From Sulfurovum sp. (GTDB taxonomy: Bacteria; Campylobacterota; Campylobacteria; Campylobacterales; Sulfurovaceae), in contig JALSUP010000018.1 of the NCBI GenBank assembly GCA_027071315.1, forward strand, positions 1 through 45,226: a stretch of 45,226 bases of DNA. Direction: 5' to 3'. Positions within the stretch are counted from its first letter, which is position 1, and every line of letters starts with the position of its first letter. The notes below the pieces were generated by a model that was not told the origin of the DNA, ran no database searches, and worked only from the letters and a program-made list of their open reading frames with translations. A program made the translations under genes and the position numbers. Positions 32,673 through 39,797 of the stretch are shown here, one piece after another.

Positions 32673-32727
32673 TTGCATTATTATCATAAAATATGATACA
32701 ATATAATAAATGTACGGATATCGTACA
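32673..32727 (+). promoter_or_regulatory. Promoter region with two dyads upstream of the riboswitch
   Basis: A perfect TATAAT (32702-32707) lies just before the riboswitch. TTGCAT (32673-32678) is a possible -35, though its spacing (23) only suits the alternative -10 GATACA (32695-32700). Two perfect dyads flank the -10: TATCATA-aaa-TATGATA (32682-32698) and TGTACG-gatat-CGTACA (32711-32727). They are plausible operator sites. A further TATAAT lies at 32655-32660. Confidence 0.5.
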
Positions 32728-32728
32728 A

Positions 32729-32804
32729 ATTGATGTGCCAAACCTATCGTGAGATAGGGACGGAAAGCCACGAGTCTGAGGTTTCAGAAAGTCGGGTTGC
32801 CAAT
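32729..32804 (+). ncRNA. Cyclic di-GMP-I (GEMM) riboswitch
   Basis: The segment matches the GEMM-I consensus closely. GCCAAACC is followed by P2 CCTATC / GATAGG capped by a GTGA (GNRA) tetraloop. The conserved linker GGACGGAAAGCCACGAG comes next, then P3 with an inner perfect stem TCTGA-ggtt-TCAGA, and finally GTCGGGTTGCC. ATTG (32729-32732) and CAAT (32801-32804) close P1. The family binds the second messenger c-di-GMP and controls motility, adhesion and surface-protein genes. It precedes the DUF1800/DUF1501 genes by about 175 bases. No U-tract terminator follows, so control may be at translation or RNA stability. The identification is from consensus memory, without a covariance search. Confidence 0.88.
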
Positions 32805-32891
32805 ACTCTCATAAAGCTGCAAACATAGCAAAGTATTTGCTCACCTCATTATCTTTAACCTTGTATATTTTAAAAGTGCGAGGAGATATGA

Positions 32892-32993
32892 ATGAATTAT
32901 ATTACATTAAAAAAACTTTTAATGACATTAGGATCAAATATTGGAGCAGCGGGCTCATTATGTGACCGGAGGAGTATGAGATGCGCGATTTAA
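32892..32993 (+). CDS. Possible 33-residue leader peptide between riboswitch and DUF1800 gene
   Basis: An ATG at 32892 has GAGGAG six bases upstream, better than many real genes here. It opens a 33-codon frame (start MNYITLKKLL, end RRSMRCAI) that overlaps the first 13 bases of the DUF1800 gene in another frame. The N-terminal half is basic-hydrophobic. It may be a translated leader that couples the riboswitch to the large gene, a remnant, or chance. No homology is claimed. Confidence 0.4.
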   Translation: MNYITLKKLLMTLGSNIGAAGSLCDRRSMRCAI

Positions 32994-35900
32994 AACATCT
33001 TATATGGATTTTTGTGGCATTAAGTACTTTTGGCTGGTCAGCTGCACCTACCATAGAAGGTGTACCGGATACCAATGCCATACCGGGTCAGAATTATGTG
33101 TATCAGCCTACTGCAGCCGATGCGGACGGTGATACACTGACATTCGTCATTAAAAACCAACCTTCATGGACGAACTTCGACAGTACAACAGGGAGATTGA
33201 GTGGTATCCCGTCGGTATCGGACAGGGGAGAATATTCGAATGTCAATATAGGTGTGACTGACGGTACGACGACGACCTGGGGTAATCCGATGGTGAACAT
33301 CGGTTTCACCCTTGTGGTCGATACACCTCCGACGATAGAAGGTGTCCCCGAAACACATGTTATTCCCGGAGAAGCATATGTTTTTCAGTCTACTGCTGCA
33401 GATGCGGATGGCGATCCTCTTACCTTTGTGATAAACAATAAGCCGGTCTGGGCGAACTTCGACAGTACGACAGGCAGGTTGAGCGGTACTCCGTCCACAT
33501 CGGACAGGGGGGAATACCCGAATATCAATATCGGGGTCAGTGACGGTCTGAGAACGACCTGGGGCAACCCTGTCATCAACAGTGGTTTCACTCTTGTGGT
33601 CAATACACTGCCTGTGATCAGCGGTACACCGCTGACATCCATACGGGCGGGGCAGACATACAGCTTCACTCCTACCGCCAGTGACAGCGACAATGATACT
33701 CTGATCTTTATGATCAGGAACAAACCCTCCTGGGCAACTTTCGATCCGGCTGACGGTACACTCTCCGGTACACCGCAGGCGGATGACCGTATGCAATATA
33801 ATGAGGTCATCATTGCCGTCAGCGACGGTCTGGAAGAAAGCTGGATACCCGCGTTCAACCTCAGGGTCGAGAACAATCCGCCGGTGATCTCCGGTACGCC
33901 GGACCCTGTAGCGCTGGTAGGTACCCAATACCGTTTTACACCGACCGTGAGTGACAGTGATGGGGATGCGATCCATTTCCGTATCATCAATAAACCGCCG
34001 GGTACGACGTTCAATACGGAGACAGGGGAATTAAGTGCCTATGCCCCAGAGACAGCTATTGATATGACAGCAAAAGATATTACCATCATAGCGATCGATG
34101 AAAAATATGCGCAGGCACAACTGCCACCCTTTTCTGTTACTGTGAGAAATGCAAAGTATTTCGATGCACCTGAACTCCTGGGTACGCCGTCTACGTCAGC
34201 GATAGAAGGCGAGAGCTACAGTTTTTTGCCCAAAGTACATTATTATGGTGAGGGAAGGGTGGTCTACAGTATCGAGAACAAACCTTCCTGGACGGAGTTC
34301 AGTACCAATACAGGTAAACTCAGTGGTATTCCCCATGCGGAAGATGTAGGTACATCAGACGATATTGTCATCACTGCCCATGCCGGGAACGGTACTACCT
34401 CGAGTTATGCACCGTTCAAGATCACGATCACCTCGACACAGGCATCCAGTCGGGAAGCATTCAACCTTTTACTGCATGCAAGTTTCGGTCCTACGGAAGC
34501 ATCGATCCGGGAAGTGATGGATATGGGGATTGAAGCATGGGTGGAGAACCAGTTATCCCTTCCTTCGGCATACGACAGCAAAACGGATGGATACCTGACT
34601 TATCTTGAACGTTATATTCAAATCGCACAAACAGTGGACCCAGACAACAGTGCCTGGAACAGTGCAACGATCGCAGAATATACGGCTGAACGCACGGATG
34701 AGGCACCAGATGTAGCGGTCTTTAAGTTCGGACCGAAAATATTCCCTTCTGTCTGGTTCGAAAATGTACTGCATGATGAAGACCAGCTTCGTCAAAGAGT
34801 CGCATTTGCGCTCAGCCAGATCCTGGTGATAGACGGAGTGAGAGAGGGTGCTGCATCATTCTATGATATTTTGGTGAAAGACGCTTTTACGAACTACAGG
34901 GACCTGTTGATCGATGTCACTTTCTCCGCGGAAATGTGCAAACACCTGACATACAGCGGTAGTAGAGGAGATGACCCCAAATACCATGCGGATGAAAATT
35001 ATGCGAGAGAACTGATGCAGCTTTTCACCATAGGACTGCATAGAATGTATCTTGACGGAACACCGGTCTATAATAACGGTGCATTGATAGAGAACTACAC
35101 CTCTTCGGATATTGAACAGATCGCGAGGGTCTTTACCGGGTGGGATCTGTACGGCAATCAGCAATTTGGCAGGTACTCTGTGGAATTTGCTGACAATACC
35201 CGGCCGATACATCTTTTTTCAAATGGTATATATCATGACTATGGTGAAAAAGAGATCACGTTGGAGGGCTACGGTACTACCATTTCCGGTGCGGATCCAC
35301 GTCAGGAGATCACAGATGTTATTGATAATCTGATGCAGCATCCCAATACCGCCCCCTTTATTTCAAAGCAGTTGATCATGCGTCTGGTCACATCGAATCC
35401 AAGCCCGGCTTATGTGGCGAGGATAGCCAGTGTATTCAATGATAACGGTCGGGGGGTCAAAGGCGATCTCAAATCGGTCGTCCGTGCCATTCTTCTCGAC
35501 CCGGAAGCACGCAGTATCGATCCGTTGATCGCCAAAAAAGTCAAAGAGCCGTTACTGGCATATACACAGTTTCTCCGTACATTCGATGTAGGATACGCCC
35601 CTGTAGCCTGTGATGCCTCACTGCTTGGAGGAAAATCCGGATTAAAGGTCAGTAACATTTATGTGTTCAAGAGTGATTTTCAGATGGGACTTGGAGAAGG
35701 GCCTTTGACGTCACCTACGGTATTTAACTTTTATGACAACAGTTTCGTACCGAATGATGCCGGCTTCCGTGACAATGCTTTGGTGTCACCCGAGTTCCAG
35801 ATCGTCAACGAGCAGAGTATCACGTTCCTCTCCAATCTGTTTTTTGAGGCACTTTATGCGTATAACAAAGATGACCATATGGTATCACGCGGTCTTCTCC

Positions 35901-36196
35901 CTATTGATTGGTTCTCACTCTCTTTTGATGATGAACTTGCCATTGTCCTGGATGCATTGGATGGTGACTATGCAAACCTGACAGATGAAACCTATGGTGA
36001 AAAAGCACTGGATGCGATCATTGCGCACTTCAATACGAAACTGGTGAAAGGTACATTGAAAGCGGCACAGATAGTAATGATCAAAAGTTATATTGTGACA
36101 CTGCCGACAGATGGGACTGAAAAGAATGCAAGAAGATTGATATCGATAGTTGCAAGGTTGATTCTGGCCACCCAGAATTATATGATTCAAAAATAA
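32981..36196 (+). CDS. Secreted DUF1800 protein with five cadherin-like (CADG) repeats
   Basis: The 1071-residue protein has a signal peptide (about 1-21). Five dystroglycan-type cadherin-like/He-PIG repeats follow (about 23-116, 117-210, 211-299, 300-390, 397-485), each with PxIxGxP, DxDxDxLxF and FDxxTGxLSGxP signatures. The DUF1800 region (about 490-1071) contains YARELMQLFTIGLHRM and TGWD. DUF1800 has no established activity but typically pairs with a DUF1501 gene, as here, 10 bases downstream. The protein is probably periplasmic or on the surface; CADG repeats often bind sugars or other proteins and may bind Ca2+. GGAGGAG precedes the ATG. The c-di-GMP riboswitch lies upstream. Confidence 0.88.
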   Translation: MRDLKHLIWIFVALSTFGWSAAPTIEGVPDTNAIPGQNYVYQPTAADADGDTLTFVIKNQPSWTNFDSTTGRLSGIPSVSDRGEYSNVNIGVTDGTTTTWGNPMVNIGFTLVVDTPPTIEGVPETHVIPGEAYVFQSTAADADGDPLTFVINNKPVWANFDSTTGRLSGTPSTSDRGEYPNINIGVSDGLRTTWGNPVINSGFTLVVNTLPVISGTPLTSIRAGQTYSFTPTASDSDNDTLIFMIRNKPSWATFDPADGTLSGTPQADDRMQYNEVIIAVSDGLEESWIPAFNLRVENNPPVISGTPDPVALVGTQYRFTPTVSDSDGDAIHFRIINKPPGTTFNTETGELSAYAPETAIDMTAKDITIIAIDEKYAQAQLPPFSVTVRNAKYFDAPELLGTPSTSAIEGESYSFLPKVHYYGEGRVVYSIENKPSWTEFSTNTGKLSGIPHAEDVGTSDDIVITAHAGNGTTSSYAPFKITITSTQASSREAFNLLLHASFGPTEASIREVMDMGIEAWVENQLSLPSAYDSKTDGYLTYLERYIQIAQTVDPDNSAWNSATIAEYTAERTDEAPDVAVFKFGPKIFPSVWFENVLHDEDQLRQRVAFALSQILVIDGVREGAASFYDILVKDAFTNYRDLLIDVTFSAEMCKHLTYSGSRGDDPKYHADENYARELMQLFTIGLHRMYLDGTPVYNNGALIENYTSSDIEQIARVFTGWDLYGNQQFGRYSVEFADNTRPIHLFSNGIYHDYGEKEITLEGYGTTISGADPRQEITDVIDNLMQHPNTAPFISKQLIMRLVTSNPSPAYVARIASVFNDNGRGVKGDLKSVVRAILLDPEARSIDPLIAKKVKEPLLAYTQFLRTFDVGYAPVACDASLLGGKSGLKVSNIYVFKSDFQMGLGEGPLTSPTVFNFYDNSFVPNDAGFRDNALVSPEFQIVNEQSITFLSNLFFEALYAYNKDDHMVSRGLLPIDWFSLSFDDELAIVLDALDGDYANLTDETYGEKALDAIIAHFNTKLVKGTLKAAQIVMIKSYIVTLPTDGTEKNARRLISIVARLILATQNYMIQK

Positions 36197-36206
36197 AGGA
36201 GTAATG

Positions 36207-37769
36207 ATGAAAACAGAACGAAGAGACTTTTTGCGGAAAGCGTATCATGCTTCTGTAGTAGCTGCACTGGCCCCAATGGTAGCTCCCCAGGAGATCTATG
36301 CGGCAACAGGCCCCAGCGGTGAATATAAAGCGTTGGTCTATATTATGCTGGAAGGAGGGAATGATGCCTGGAATATGGTTCTGCCCACGTTGAGACAGAG
36401 TGATCTTTCAGCGGTAGACTACCCTGGAAGTTATGATAACTATGCTGCAAATCGTGGACCGGGACTCTCCGTGCTTTATAATGACCTATCCCCAGCACTT
36501 TCCAGTAAGCTGGTAGATGGGAAACTGGATTTCAGTACAGGCAATCCATACCCTGCGAACACAGATACGAACCCGACCTATTTAAGTGGTATGTATCATA
36601 CCGATACGGGACTTGCGGTCAATGCGGTGATGCCTGAACTTGCCCAGATGATGAATGACGGAAAGGTGGCGGCCATAGCATCCGTCGGTACGTTGATAGA
36701 ACCGGCGATGGACGCCGAAAACAAAAAAATACCGGATAGTACTATCCCCGGCTTTATGGGATCACACAATACCCAGAGACGTTATCAGGAAATGGGACAG
36801 GCAAGCAACGTTACGACGAAGGGATGGATAGGACGTCTTTTTGACGAGTGGGGAACCCTGAACGGCAGTGATATGATGGGTAAGAATATTTCATTTGCAG
36901 ATAACAATTATTCTCTGAACGGTGTAAATACTTCGCCCCTTGTCATGTCCACGATACCCAATGCATACAAGGGAGAGATCCGTTCAGTTTATGTAGATGG
37001 AGAATGGCAGGATATAGATACATTGAGTGAAGAGGAGGTAGCTGTACGTAAAAATATGGCGTCAGAAGCGACGCAGAAGCCATTTGAAGACTTCTTCAAC
37101 CGTATGGTGGGACGTTCTTTCGATCTGGACAATCAAATAAAGGGTATCTGGGACAATGCACATCAGTTCTCCGCAACCAACTCCTATGGTGTACCGCTGT
37201 TCTCCGAGCCTGAGCTTCAACTTTACATCGGGAAACATTTGGATACCTCTCTTTTCAAACAGCTCGAAGCGATCTTGAAAATGATTGAGTATGGAAAGAA
37301 CAACGGTATGACCAGACAGGTTTTTTATGTACGGTTCGGGGTCTTTGATACGCACAGTGATCATATAATGCGAAATACGGCCTTGCTGCGTGAGTTGAGT
37401 ATGGGCCTCTATGATTTCCAGAATGCCCTTGAAGAGTTGGGCGCGGCGGATAATGTCACGACATTCACGCTTTCGGACTTCGGCCGCAGTCTCGGTGATA
37501 ACGGAGATGGTACGGATCATGCATGGGCCGGTCTGAACCTGGTTCTTGGCAATGCGGTGAACGGAGGTCTGTACGGAGAATTCCCTGATTGGACGATGGG
37601 TGGTAAACAGGATTACAAGATGAACGGAACGTTCGTCCCGACCTTGAGTGTGGAGCAGCAGCTTGCAACAATCACGAAGTGGTTCGGTGCGGATGATGCT
37701 ATGAACGATATACTCTTTCCGAACCTGAAGAACTTCAATGAACGCGATCTTGGCTTCATGAAGGCATGA
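36207..37769 (+). CDS. Tat-exported DUF1501 protein
   Basis: The 520-residue protein starts with a twin-arginine signal (ERRDFLRK, then a hydrophobic stretch to EIYAA), so it is exported folded. DUF1501 belongs to the alkaline phosphatase/sulfatase-like fold. Family stretches are LEGGNDAWNMVLP near the N-terminus, GVFDTHSDH, LSDFGRSLGDNGDGTDHAW and GGLYGEFPD, whose Asp/His residues could bind metal. The enzymatic activity of the family is unproven. It is almost certainly co-transcribed with the DUF1800 gene. The second of two adjacent ATGs (36207) is better spaced from AAGGAG. Confidence 0.9.
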   Translation: MKTERRDFLRKAYHASVVAALAPMVAPQEIYAATGPSGEYKALVYIMLEGGNDAWNMVLPTLRQSDLSAVDYPGSYDNYAANRGPGLSVLYNDLSPALSSKLVDGKLDFSTGNPYPANTDTNPTYLSGMYHTDTGLAVNAVMPELAQMMNDGKVAAIASVGTLIEPAMDAENKKIPDSTIPGFMGSHNTQRRYQEMGQASNVTTKGWIGRLFDEWGTLNGSDMMGKNISFADNNYSLNGVNTSPLVMSTIPNAYKGEIRSVYVDGEWQDIDTLSEEEVAVRKNMASEATQKPFEDFFNRMVGRSFDLDNQIKGIWDNAHQFSATNSYGVPLFSEPELQLYIGKHLDTSLFKQLEAILKMIEYGKNNGMTRQVFYVRFGVFDTHSDHIMRNTALLRELSMGLYDFQNALEELGAADNVTTFTLSDFGRSLGDNGDGTDHAWAGLNLVLGNAVNGGLYGEFPDWTMGGKQDYKMNGTFVPTLSVEQQLATITKWFGADDAMNDILFPNLKNFNERDLGFMKA

Positions 37770-37976: not shown

Positions 37977-39797
37977 ATGAAAAAGCAAAAAGAAATATTC
38001 AGTCTTGTAGCAGCAATAGCAGTGATGGGAAATGTTTCACTGTATGGAGGAAGTGAAGGGAAGACGGGAGGCAATGTCTATTACGGAGATGGTACCGGAA
38101 GCAGCTTGGATGCAGGCGCGAATGGAGGTAATGTGTTCATGGGCTACTATACCGGTTACAATACGGACTGGGGGAGGCGCAACACTTTCAGCGGTTACCA
38201 GAGTGGCTATAGCAACACATTTGGATCGGACAACACATTCAGCGGCTATCTAAGTGGTTACTTTAACACTGATGGTGGCATTGCGAATACCTTTTTCGGC
38301 TCTCAGAGCGGCTACAGCAACACGATAGGCATCTGGAACACCTTCCTCGGTGCGGGCAGTGGCTACAGTAACACGACTGGCTGGCGAAACACTTTCATCG
38401 GCATGGGCAGTGGCTACAACAACACGACCGGTTTGCGAAATACCTTCCTGGGTGTGGGAAGCGGCTACTACACCACGACCGGACGGCGAAATACCTTCTG
38501 CGGTGCAGGTAGCGGTCATGACAACACGAACGGACAGCGAAACACTTTCTGCGGTGAGGCCAGTGGCTTCCATCACACGAGCGGCGACTACAATATCTTC
38601 GTTGGTTATCGCTCCGGATACAATGCCGATATCAACGGAAGCGTCCTTCTCGGATATGAAGCTGGCTACGATGCAACAAGAGACAATACCCTCTATATCT
38701 CCAACAGTGATACCAATAACTCCCTCATCTATGGAGAGTTCGATACCAAGATGCTGAGAGTCAACGGGGTAATGGAGATCAATTCAACAAAATTTCTTGT
38801 AAGTCAGGCGGATAAAGGTCCCATTTACGGATATCCTGCTTTAAGACTCAATTCTTTTGATCTTCCCAGAACACAGATGGACTGGATAATTGGTTTGCGA
38901 TATGAACCAGAAGTTTTGCCAACACCAAAAGGGGCACTTGCATTTTACAATGCTGCAACCGGTAAAGTTCCATTGCGAATTACCAATGGGGCAAAAGATG
39001 CTCTGCTTGCGTTGATCAAGAGCACTGTTGTAGTAAAGGGGGACCTCAATACTACAGGAGTCATCTCTTCATACCTGGATGTAAACAATACCTTTACAAG
39101 TGAGTTTGCCATGGAACTCTCAAGAGAGAACATTGGTACAGGGTACTCAGATGTCGGATTTACGCTTGAGAACAAAACAGACAGGGGAGGATTTAAATGG
39201 GCGTTGCAAACGGATTATCAAAATGAAGGTTTGGTTGCCTCAAAGATCGGTACGAATGGATATGAGTTTGCAGTAAATAATCCTACAGACAATGTTGACA
39301 ATGTAGAATTGTCAGCAGCCGGTAAAGTCTTTTTTACAGGCGGACACCTGCAGGATCCTTCAAGCAGAAGTTATAAAGATGATATTAAAACACTTGATAT
39401 CAAAACCGCACTGAAAGCTTTCAATAAACTTGAGCCGGTCACCTTTGTCTATAAAGGGCACAAAGAGGATAAAGTGGTCGGTTTCATCGCTGAAGATGTA
39501 CCTGAACTGCTTGCAATGAAGGGAAGAAAAGGTATTAACCCGACCGAGATAGTCGCTGTGTTGACAAAGGTGCTGCAGGAACAGGATAAGGTATTGGCTG
39601 AGACTAGAGCTGAGATGAAAGCTAAAGATAAACAAATAGCCTTGCTTGTAGAAAAACAAAAAGAGCAGTCTCTCAAAATCACTCAACTTGAAACCATGAA
39701 GAAAAAGGTCGCTATGATGGAATCTATTTTGACAAATTTGACTTTAGATACTTCTCACACCAAACAAAAGAAAGTCTCTTTTCAATTTTTGTACTAA
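37977..39797 (+). CDS. Tail-fibre-like repeat protein with C-terminal S74 self-cleaving chaperone domain
   Basis: The 606-residue protein has a likely signal peptide (about 1-25). Ten 17-residue repeats follow (about 52-222, consensus NTFxGxxSGYxNTTGxR), expected to stack as a trimeric beta-structure. A spacer region (223-455) leads to a peptidase S74/intramolecular chaperone domain. That domain has PSSRSYKDDI, where S462 and K467 have the Ser-x4-Lys spacing of the self-cleavage dyad, and VGFIAEDVPEL. A trimerising coiled coil lies at 530-588. Similar domains mature phage tail spikes and some bacterial surface fibres. No phage genes surround it, so a cell-surface fibre or adhesin is favoured. 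A strong AGGAGGG precedes the ATG. Confidence 0.85.
   Translation: MKKQKEIFSLVAAIAVMGNVSLYGGSEGKTGGNVYYGDGTGSSLDAGANGGNVFMGYYTGYNTDWGRRNTFSGYQSGYSNTFGSDNTFSGYLSGYFNTDGGIANTFFGSQSGYSNTIGIWNTFLGAGSGYSNTTGWRNTFIGMGSGYNNTTGLRNTFLGVGSGYYTTTGRRNTFCGAGSGHDNTNGQRNTFCGEASGFHHTSGDYNIFVGYRSGYNADINGSVLLGYEAGYDATRDNTLYISNSDTNNSLIYGEFDTKMLRVNGVMEINSTKFLVSQADKGPIYGYPALRLNSFDLPRTQMDWIIGLRYEPEVLPTPKGALAFYNAATGKVPLRITNGAKDALLALIKSTVVVKGDLNTTGVISSYLDVNNTFTSEFAMELSRENIGTGYSDVGFTLENKTDRGGFKWALQTDYQNEGLVASKIGTNGYEFAVNNPTDNVDNVELSAAGKVFFTGGHLQDPSSRSYKDDIKTLDIKTALKAFNKLEPVTFVYKGHKEDKVVGFIAEDVPELLAMKGRKGINPTEIVAVLTKVLQEQDKVLAETRAEMKAKDKQIALLVEKQKEQSLKITQLETMKKKVAMMESILTNLTLDTSHTKQKKVSFQFLY
38130..38642 (+). repeat. 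Ten in-frame repeats of about 51 bp within the fibre gene
   Basis: Repeats begin at N-T-F/N-V-F/N-I-F codons every 51 bases (one unit is 54). The middle units (about 38337-38591) are the most alike, suggesting recent duplication or gene conversion. The array lies wholly inside the S74 gene and is not a CRISPR. Confidence 0.85.

Follow-up and report, generated by a model that had tools for sequence, protein, structure and literature searches.

A c-di-GMP-I riboswitch aptamer ahead of the DUF1800 and DUF1501 genes of a Sulfurovum sp.

Background

The expression of surface genes is often raised by c-di-GMP. Both directions of control have been described for riboswitches of the c-di-GMP-I (GEMM-I) class: Cd1 switches OFF (PMC9262584), while Vc1 of Vibrio cholerae, located ahead of the surface-attachment gene gbpA, acts positively (PMC4744006). 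The numbering of the ligand-contacting bases used throughout is that of Vc2 and, like the geometry of the receptor pairs in P3, is taken from PMC3764141. A subgroup of GEMM-I aptamers that senses c-AMP-GMP is marked by A20 (PMC7288161, together with established knowledge).

The locus described here lies within the window, that is, the whole 45,226-nucleotide stretch of Sulfurovum sp. DNA that was analysed. In it an aptamer of this class is followed by a DUF1800 gene and a DUF1501 gene. DUF1800 and DUF1501 occur as a pair in many bacteria and, to our knowledge, have no assigned function. In published work the pair shares an operon with chitin synthases of bacteria (PMC5122149). No description of c-di-GMP-I riboswitches in Sulfurovum was found in a limited literature search.

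Results and discussion

Identity of the aptamer

A scan of the whole window against all 4227 Rfam families gave one match, to RF01051 (c-di-GMP-I), with a score of 60.5 bits where the gathering score is 35. The match covers the full length of the model (positions 1-87), with an E-value of 1.7e-9 in the window and 2.3e-11 at genome scale. A search with this GEMM-I covariance model had been named by the initial annotation as its decisive test, and the outcome bears the annotation out. Its coordinates, 32729-32804, are exact at the end, while the start lies two bases inside the match. Chance resemblance to the model has a negligible probability, given these E-values and the conserved counterpart at locus L098 of genome G064; it is already refuted by the model match together with the conservation. 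The sequence at 32727-32804 is therefore a true aptamer of this riboswitch class, placed in the leader upstream of an operon of DUF1800 and DUF1501 (Table 1).

Table 1. Coordinates of the features of the riboswitch and its operon in the window
Feature	Position	Strand	Evidence
c-di-GMP-I (GEMM-I) aptamer	32727..32804	+	RF01051 60.5 bits, gathering score 35, full length
P1 5' strand AUUG, pairs with 32801-32804 CAAU	32729..32732	+	Sequence; hand-set structure folded
G20 (32737; contacts one ligand guanine), C21, C22; C21-C22 pair with G46-G45	32737..32739	+	RF01051 alignment; Vc2 numbering, PMC3764141
P2 hairpin CCUAUC-GUGA-GAUAGG, GNRA tetraloop	32743..32758	+	RF01051 alignment, sequence
G45, G46 (consensus C), A47 (32764; stacking between both ligand guanines)	32762..32764	+	RF01051 alignment; RF03167 has G47
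P3 with internal loop; C-G and U-A tetraloop receptor pairs (Vc2 C59-G79, U60-A78)	32766..32798	+	RF01051 alignment; PMC3764141
C92, Watson-Crick partner of the ligand's other guanine	32800	+	RF01051 alignment
Putative anti-aptamer strand, complementary to 32778-32807 (P3 and P1 3' strand)	32832..32862	+	Fold of 32727-32870 and L098 equivalent, same register
Hairpin CCUUGUAU/GUGCGAGG, holds part of the Shine-Dalgarno sequence 32880-32885	32859..32883	+	Folding
33-codon ORF, MNYI... start, overlaps DUF1800 start	32892..32993	+	ORF translation
DUF1800 protein, 1071 aa, signal peptide (by eye), He_PIG/Big_9 Ig domains, C-terminal DUF1800 domain	32981..36196	+	PF08811 247.9 bits, cut-off 26.1
DUF1501 protein, 521 aa, twin-arginine signal RRDFLRK	36204..37769	+	PF07394 81.4 bits, cut-off 27

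The bases that recognise the ligand, G20, A47 and C92, are all canonical in the RF01051 alignment. P2 ends in the GNRA tetraloop that had been proposed for it, here GUGA, and the corresponding receptor position in P3 holds C50-G61 and U51-A60 (aptamer numbering), from which docking is predicted. The two-part P3 and the GTCGGGTTGCC 3' end that had been described from the sequence are likewise both present. The linker had been called near-invariant and this has to be corrected, as it is not the consensus: it reads GACGGAAAG here and GACGCAAAG in Rfam, a change from C to G at Vc2 position 46. This change is compensated at position 21, giving C21-G46 for G21-C46 in a pair that adjoins the ligand pocket, with G45-G46 paired to C21-C22. 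The swap was also considered as a change in the ligand base G20, which was ruled out because the numbering of PMC3764141 places it at 21-46 and leaves G20 intact.

The locus is thus a further example of a known riboswitch class, and the gene pair that it precedes is the interesting part of it. Support for the c-di-GMP-I reading comes from the model match, from the canonical ligand-contact bases, from a gene order that recurs in other species and from an aptamer that is more conserved than the genes behind it. On this sequence evidence the aptamer is expected to bind c-di-GMP.

The inverted 21-46 pair and variant aptamer families

About 120 aptamers were extracted from genomes of the same family, the remaining extracted rows, judged by eye, being non-aptamer stretches or a mis-parse. 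All but one of these aptamers have C21-G46, where the Rfam consensus is G-C. The inversion is therefore a family-wide trait, as usual in these bacteria as the consensus pair is elsewhere in the class is not required to explain it. In about ten of the aptamers C22-G45 is in addition replaced by U22-A45, so that pairing is kept.

An inverted pair beside the pocket could also mean a variant aptamer that uses the same scaffold for another ligand, either of the RF03167 (c-di-GMP-I-GGC) type or of the c-AMP-GMP-sensing subgroup. The genome-wide E-value of the window aptamer is lower with RF03167 than with RF01051, and RF03167 is the best-scoring Rfam model for four related loci, scoring 59.2 bits at L097 and L098 and about 70 bits at L213 and L214. 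Against this, the window itself scores 55.7 bits with RF03167, below the cut-off of 59, and position 47, which is A in the window and in L098, is G in the printed RF03167 consensus. The matches at L097 and L098 are borderline, since 59.2 is barely over the cut-off and the consensus has G47. The c-AMP-GMP-sensing subgroup is excluded because position 20 in the window is G and not its marker A. Furthermore, C21-G46 is shared by the roughly 120 family aptamers, which precede ordinary envelope and chemosensory genes. A variant ligand is therefore very unlikely. A related proposal treats the Campylobacterota aptamers with an inverted pair at 21-46 as a subgroup with a ligand preference unlike that of Vc2, for another cyclic dinucleotide or with a markedly different affinity, and assigns DUF1800/DUF1501 to the regulon of the signal concerned; this is likewise very unlikely.

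The matches at L097 and L098 were also considered as members of a 'GGC' variant defined by G46, and this was ruled out because the variant carries G47, which both loci lack. L213 and L214 also have GACGGAAAG, and hence A47. The RF03167 cut-off may admit ordinary aptamers of Campylobacterota, as A47 is found at L097, L098, L213 and L214.

Conservation and recurrence ahead of DUF1800

Between the window and L098 the aptamer and its 3' edge (32730-32815) are identical at 79 of 86 bases (92%). The DUF1800 domains of the same two loci have 51% amino acid and 56% nucleotide identity. Identities of 47% for DUF1800 and 49% for DUF1501 mark the two loci as clear counterparts. The aptamer is therefore constrained much more than the genes that follow it.

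DUF1800 is present in 31 of 175 genomes of the family. Thirty DUF1800 loci of the family were scanned, with twenty further regions from the rest of the order, making 51 loci including the window. An aptamer is located ahead of the DUF1800 operon at six of these 51, the window among them, in three families; this is a lower bound, because some of the scanned regions are cut by contig ends. Within the family, the two loci besides the window that have a c-di-GMP-I-type aptamer before DUF1800-DUF1501 are L098 and, in genome G121, L097. Elsewhere in the order the aptamer lies 69 bases ahead of DUF1800 at L208 (G526) and 46 bases ahead of it at L213 (G206), and at L214 (also G206) it heads a longer operon in which DUF1800 is the third gene. 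The aptamers in G121, G526 and G206 are on the same strand as the genes, and a DUF1501 partner is found downstream in G526 and G206. The operon at L214 (G206:C2:49300-58000) encodes in succession a lipoprotein, a protein with a Tat signal, a DUF1800 protein carrying long GNT repeats, DUF1501 and another DUF1800-like protein.

Setting aside the window, there are four direct cases, or five in all, where 0.22 would be expected (Poisson 8e-5 for four and 4e-6 for five). The expected number uses a generous ten aptamers per 2300 genes; the rate is rough and the loci are treated as independent. G121, a genome of the same genus, has just one c-di-GMP-I aptamer in total, which is the one linked to DUF1800, and G526 has three. 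When the GTDB contigs were scanned for relatives of the DUF1800 that bears the riboswitch, the G121 locus was the only one found.

The six aptamer-bearing loci do not group together in the DUF1800 tree, whose well-supported branches require the trait to have changed at least three times. Control by the aptamer has therefore been gained or lost more than once. As 45 of the 51 loci are without an aptamer, such control is not general to the DUF1800/DUF1501 pair. Because the arrangement recurs in related bacteria, the pair at these loci is probably under c-di-GMP control, and the recurrence makes this functional clue firmer than one taken from a single locus. A recurrent aptamer, gained or kept in several Campylobacterota lineages, would place DUF1800/DUF1501 in the motile/sessile regulon and offers a direct route to testing when the pair is made.

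The downstream genes and their products

The DUF1800/DUF1501 gene pair named in the initial annotation is found downstream of the aptamer on the same strand, with both domains scoring well above their cut-offs (Table 1). The AlphaFold2 model of DUF1501 has a pLDDT of 80, and the solved folds listed as closest to it are those of sulfatases, alkaline phosphatases, related transferases and phosphoethanolamine or lipoteichoic-acid enzymes, with E about 1e-4 and probability up to 1.0, at whole-chain TM-scores of just about 0.2-0.35. This model suggests that DUF1501 may be an alkaline-phosphatase/sulfatase-like enzyme. The C-terminal DUF1800 part was modelled with a pLDDT of 82, and no significant structural relatives of this model were found in the PDB. 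Neither protein yielded a useful match when its sequence was searched against solved structures. A role of the pair at the surface is tentatively suggested: its exported members, perhaps polymer- or lipid-modifying proteins, would be switched with the motile/sessile state.

A third gene on the plus strand, at 37977-39797, begins 207 bases 3' of DUF1501 and encodes a 606 aa protein in which NTF-G-SGY-NT motifs recur and a Peptidase_S74 chaperone domain is present, resembling phage tail-spike and virion proteins. It was considered as a member of the operon and rejected, since it is not conserved; L098 has a leucyl-tRNA-synthetase-like gene (identified by eye) in this position.

Proposed switching mechanism

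No terminator-like site (intrinsic terminator) was found on the plus strand between 32500 and 33100. Translation is therefore the likelier level of control, and a translational mode is proposed that would act on both genes. When the transcript is shortened to stop ahead of the ribosome-binding site, both the window and L098 have as their lowest-energy fold a long helix of 32778-32807 with 32832-32862, in the same register, in place of the aptamer. The anti-aptamer strand contains AACCUU, which is able to mask the Shine-Dalgarno sequence. The hairpin over this region (Table 1) has equivalents at the same place in L098 (CUUGUA/UACAAG) and in L208 (CCUACUUU/AAGUAGG). With the anti-aptamer helix imposed, the ribosome-binding site is unpaired with a probability of 0.60-0.74 in the window and 0.55 in L098, against 0.19 and 0.15 respectively with the aptamer imposed.

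A strand complementary to both the 3' half of the aptamer and the ribosome-binding site suggests an OFF switch. When c-di-GMP is low, the 3' half of the aptamer (32778-32807) would pair with the downstream strand (32832-32862) and leave the ribosome-binding site open. When c-di-GMP is high, the aptamer would fold around the ligand, held by G20, A47 and C92, and P1 would close; the masking strand would then be released, AACCUU would cover the ribosome-binding site, and translation of the operon would fall.

Compared with shuffled downstream sequence, the anti-aptamer pairing is weak in the window (14 of 300 shuffles at best, with no excess at 80 bases) and strong in L098 (3-6 of 300, for the two longer stretches); it is clear in L097 as well (3-4 of 300, for the two shorter stretches). 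Because this support is weak in the window, OFF is taken as just somewhat likelier than ON, and confidence in the OFF direction itself stands at about the midpoint. The same aptamer may instead be an ON switch, with c-di-GMP raising expression as Vc1 does ahead of gbpA. The positive action of Vc1 (PMC4744006) and the unconstrained fold of the window, in which the ribosome-binding site is paired either way and so is masked without ligand, point to this, as does the established tendency of surface genes to be raised by c-di-GMP. Set against it, the ribosome-binding site of both the window and L098 is less often paired when the anti-aptamer helix is formed than when the aptamer is, and the masking strand of both loci complements the aptamer. 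An ON switch is a possibility to be taken seriously, although a doubtful one. The explanation as a whole, in which a c-di-GMP-I aptamer would control a DUF1800-DUF1501 operon for exported proteins, is considered very likely.

The 33-codon ORF before DUF1800

The Shine-Dalgarno sequence that the riboswitch would mask belongs to a 33-codon ORF, which begins MNYITLKKLLMTLG, while a separate GGAGGAG precedes the start of DUF1800 at 32981, so that either start may be the controlled one. At L098 the equivalent MNYI start is read in frame with DUF1800. The ORF is either a leader ORF coupled to DUF1800 or a remnant of its N-terminus that has been split by an indel, whether real or generated in the assembly.

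The presence of a separate GGAGGAG raises the possibility that the aptamer is real but a relic, which no longer regulates DUF1800 or regulates the 33-codon leader ORF alone. This is improbable, since the aptamer has kept 92% identity to that of L098 while the gene has diverged to 51%, and since the equivalent start in L098 runs straight into DUF1800.

The c-di-GMP-I regulon of the genome and family

The host assembly, a 2.59 Mb genome of Sulfurovum-type Campylobacterota, has ten c-di-GMP-I matches over the cut-off. It also has six matches to GGDEF domains and three to EAL domains, and c-di-GMP can therefore be made and broken down. The nine further aptamers in this genome, G000 (L041-L049, on contigs C126, C171, C120, C65, C141, C77, C148, C202 and C4), precede a LysM-like protein, a PilJ-like sensor, outer-membrane-type proteins and thiamine-type genes, among others; several are near contig ends.

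At least one c-di-GMP-I match is present in 106 of the 175 family genomes. Among the first genes after these aptamers are ones that encode PilJ-type sensor domains, CAP, PAS, LysM, NlpC/P60 and Ig domains, outer-membrane barrels and efflux channels. The c-di-GMP-I regulon of the family is one of envelope, surface and sensory proteins, and the locus points to a large c-di-GMP-I regulon in Sulfurovum of exported, envelope and chemosensory proteins. In several genomes of the family two c-di-GMP-I aptamers appear to lie in tandem before a single gene, at L157, L163, L165, L168, L175, L176, L178, L039 and L051.

Comparison with described systems

The DUF1800/DUF1501 pairs linked to chitin synthases resemble the pair described here in that both domains are adjacent in one operon and DUF1501 has a Tat signal; a riboswitch is not mentioned in the sections of that source drawn on (PMC5122149). 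In contrast to those pairs, no chitin synthase was seen among the genes adjoining the pair in the window.

The c-AMP-GMP-sensing GEMM-I aptamers of Geobacter have the same scaffold, with A20 there and G20 here. Likewise, c-di-GMP-I-GGC (RF03167) shares the scaffold and belongs to the same clan, but differs from the window in having G47 for A47. Vc1 is similar in that a c-di-GMP-I aptamer is located before an exported, surface-linked protein (PMC4744006), although the genes are unrelated and its control is positive, whereas negative control is predicted here.

Relative to Vc2 of Vibrio cholerae, the structural type of RF01051, the aptamer has C21-G46 for G-C, a GUGA tetraloop, a P3 that is shorter than the consensus and a J1/2 that is apparently one base shorter. 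Its three helices, its G20, A47 and C92, and a GNRA loop that would dock to the C-G and U-A pairs of P3 are those of Vc2.
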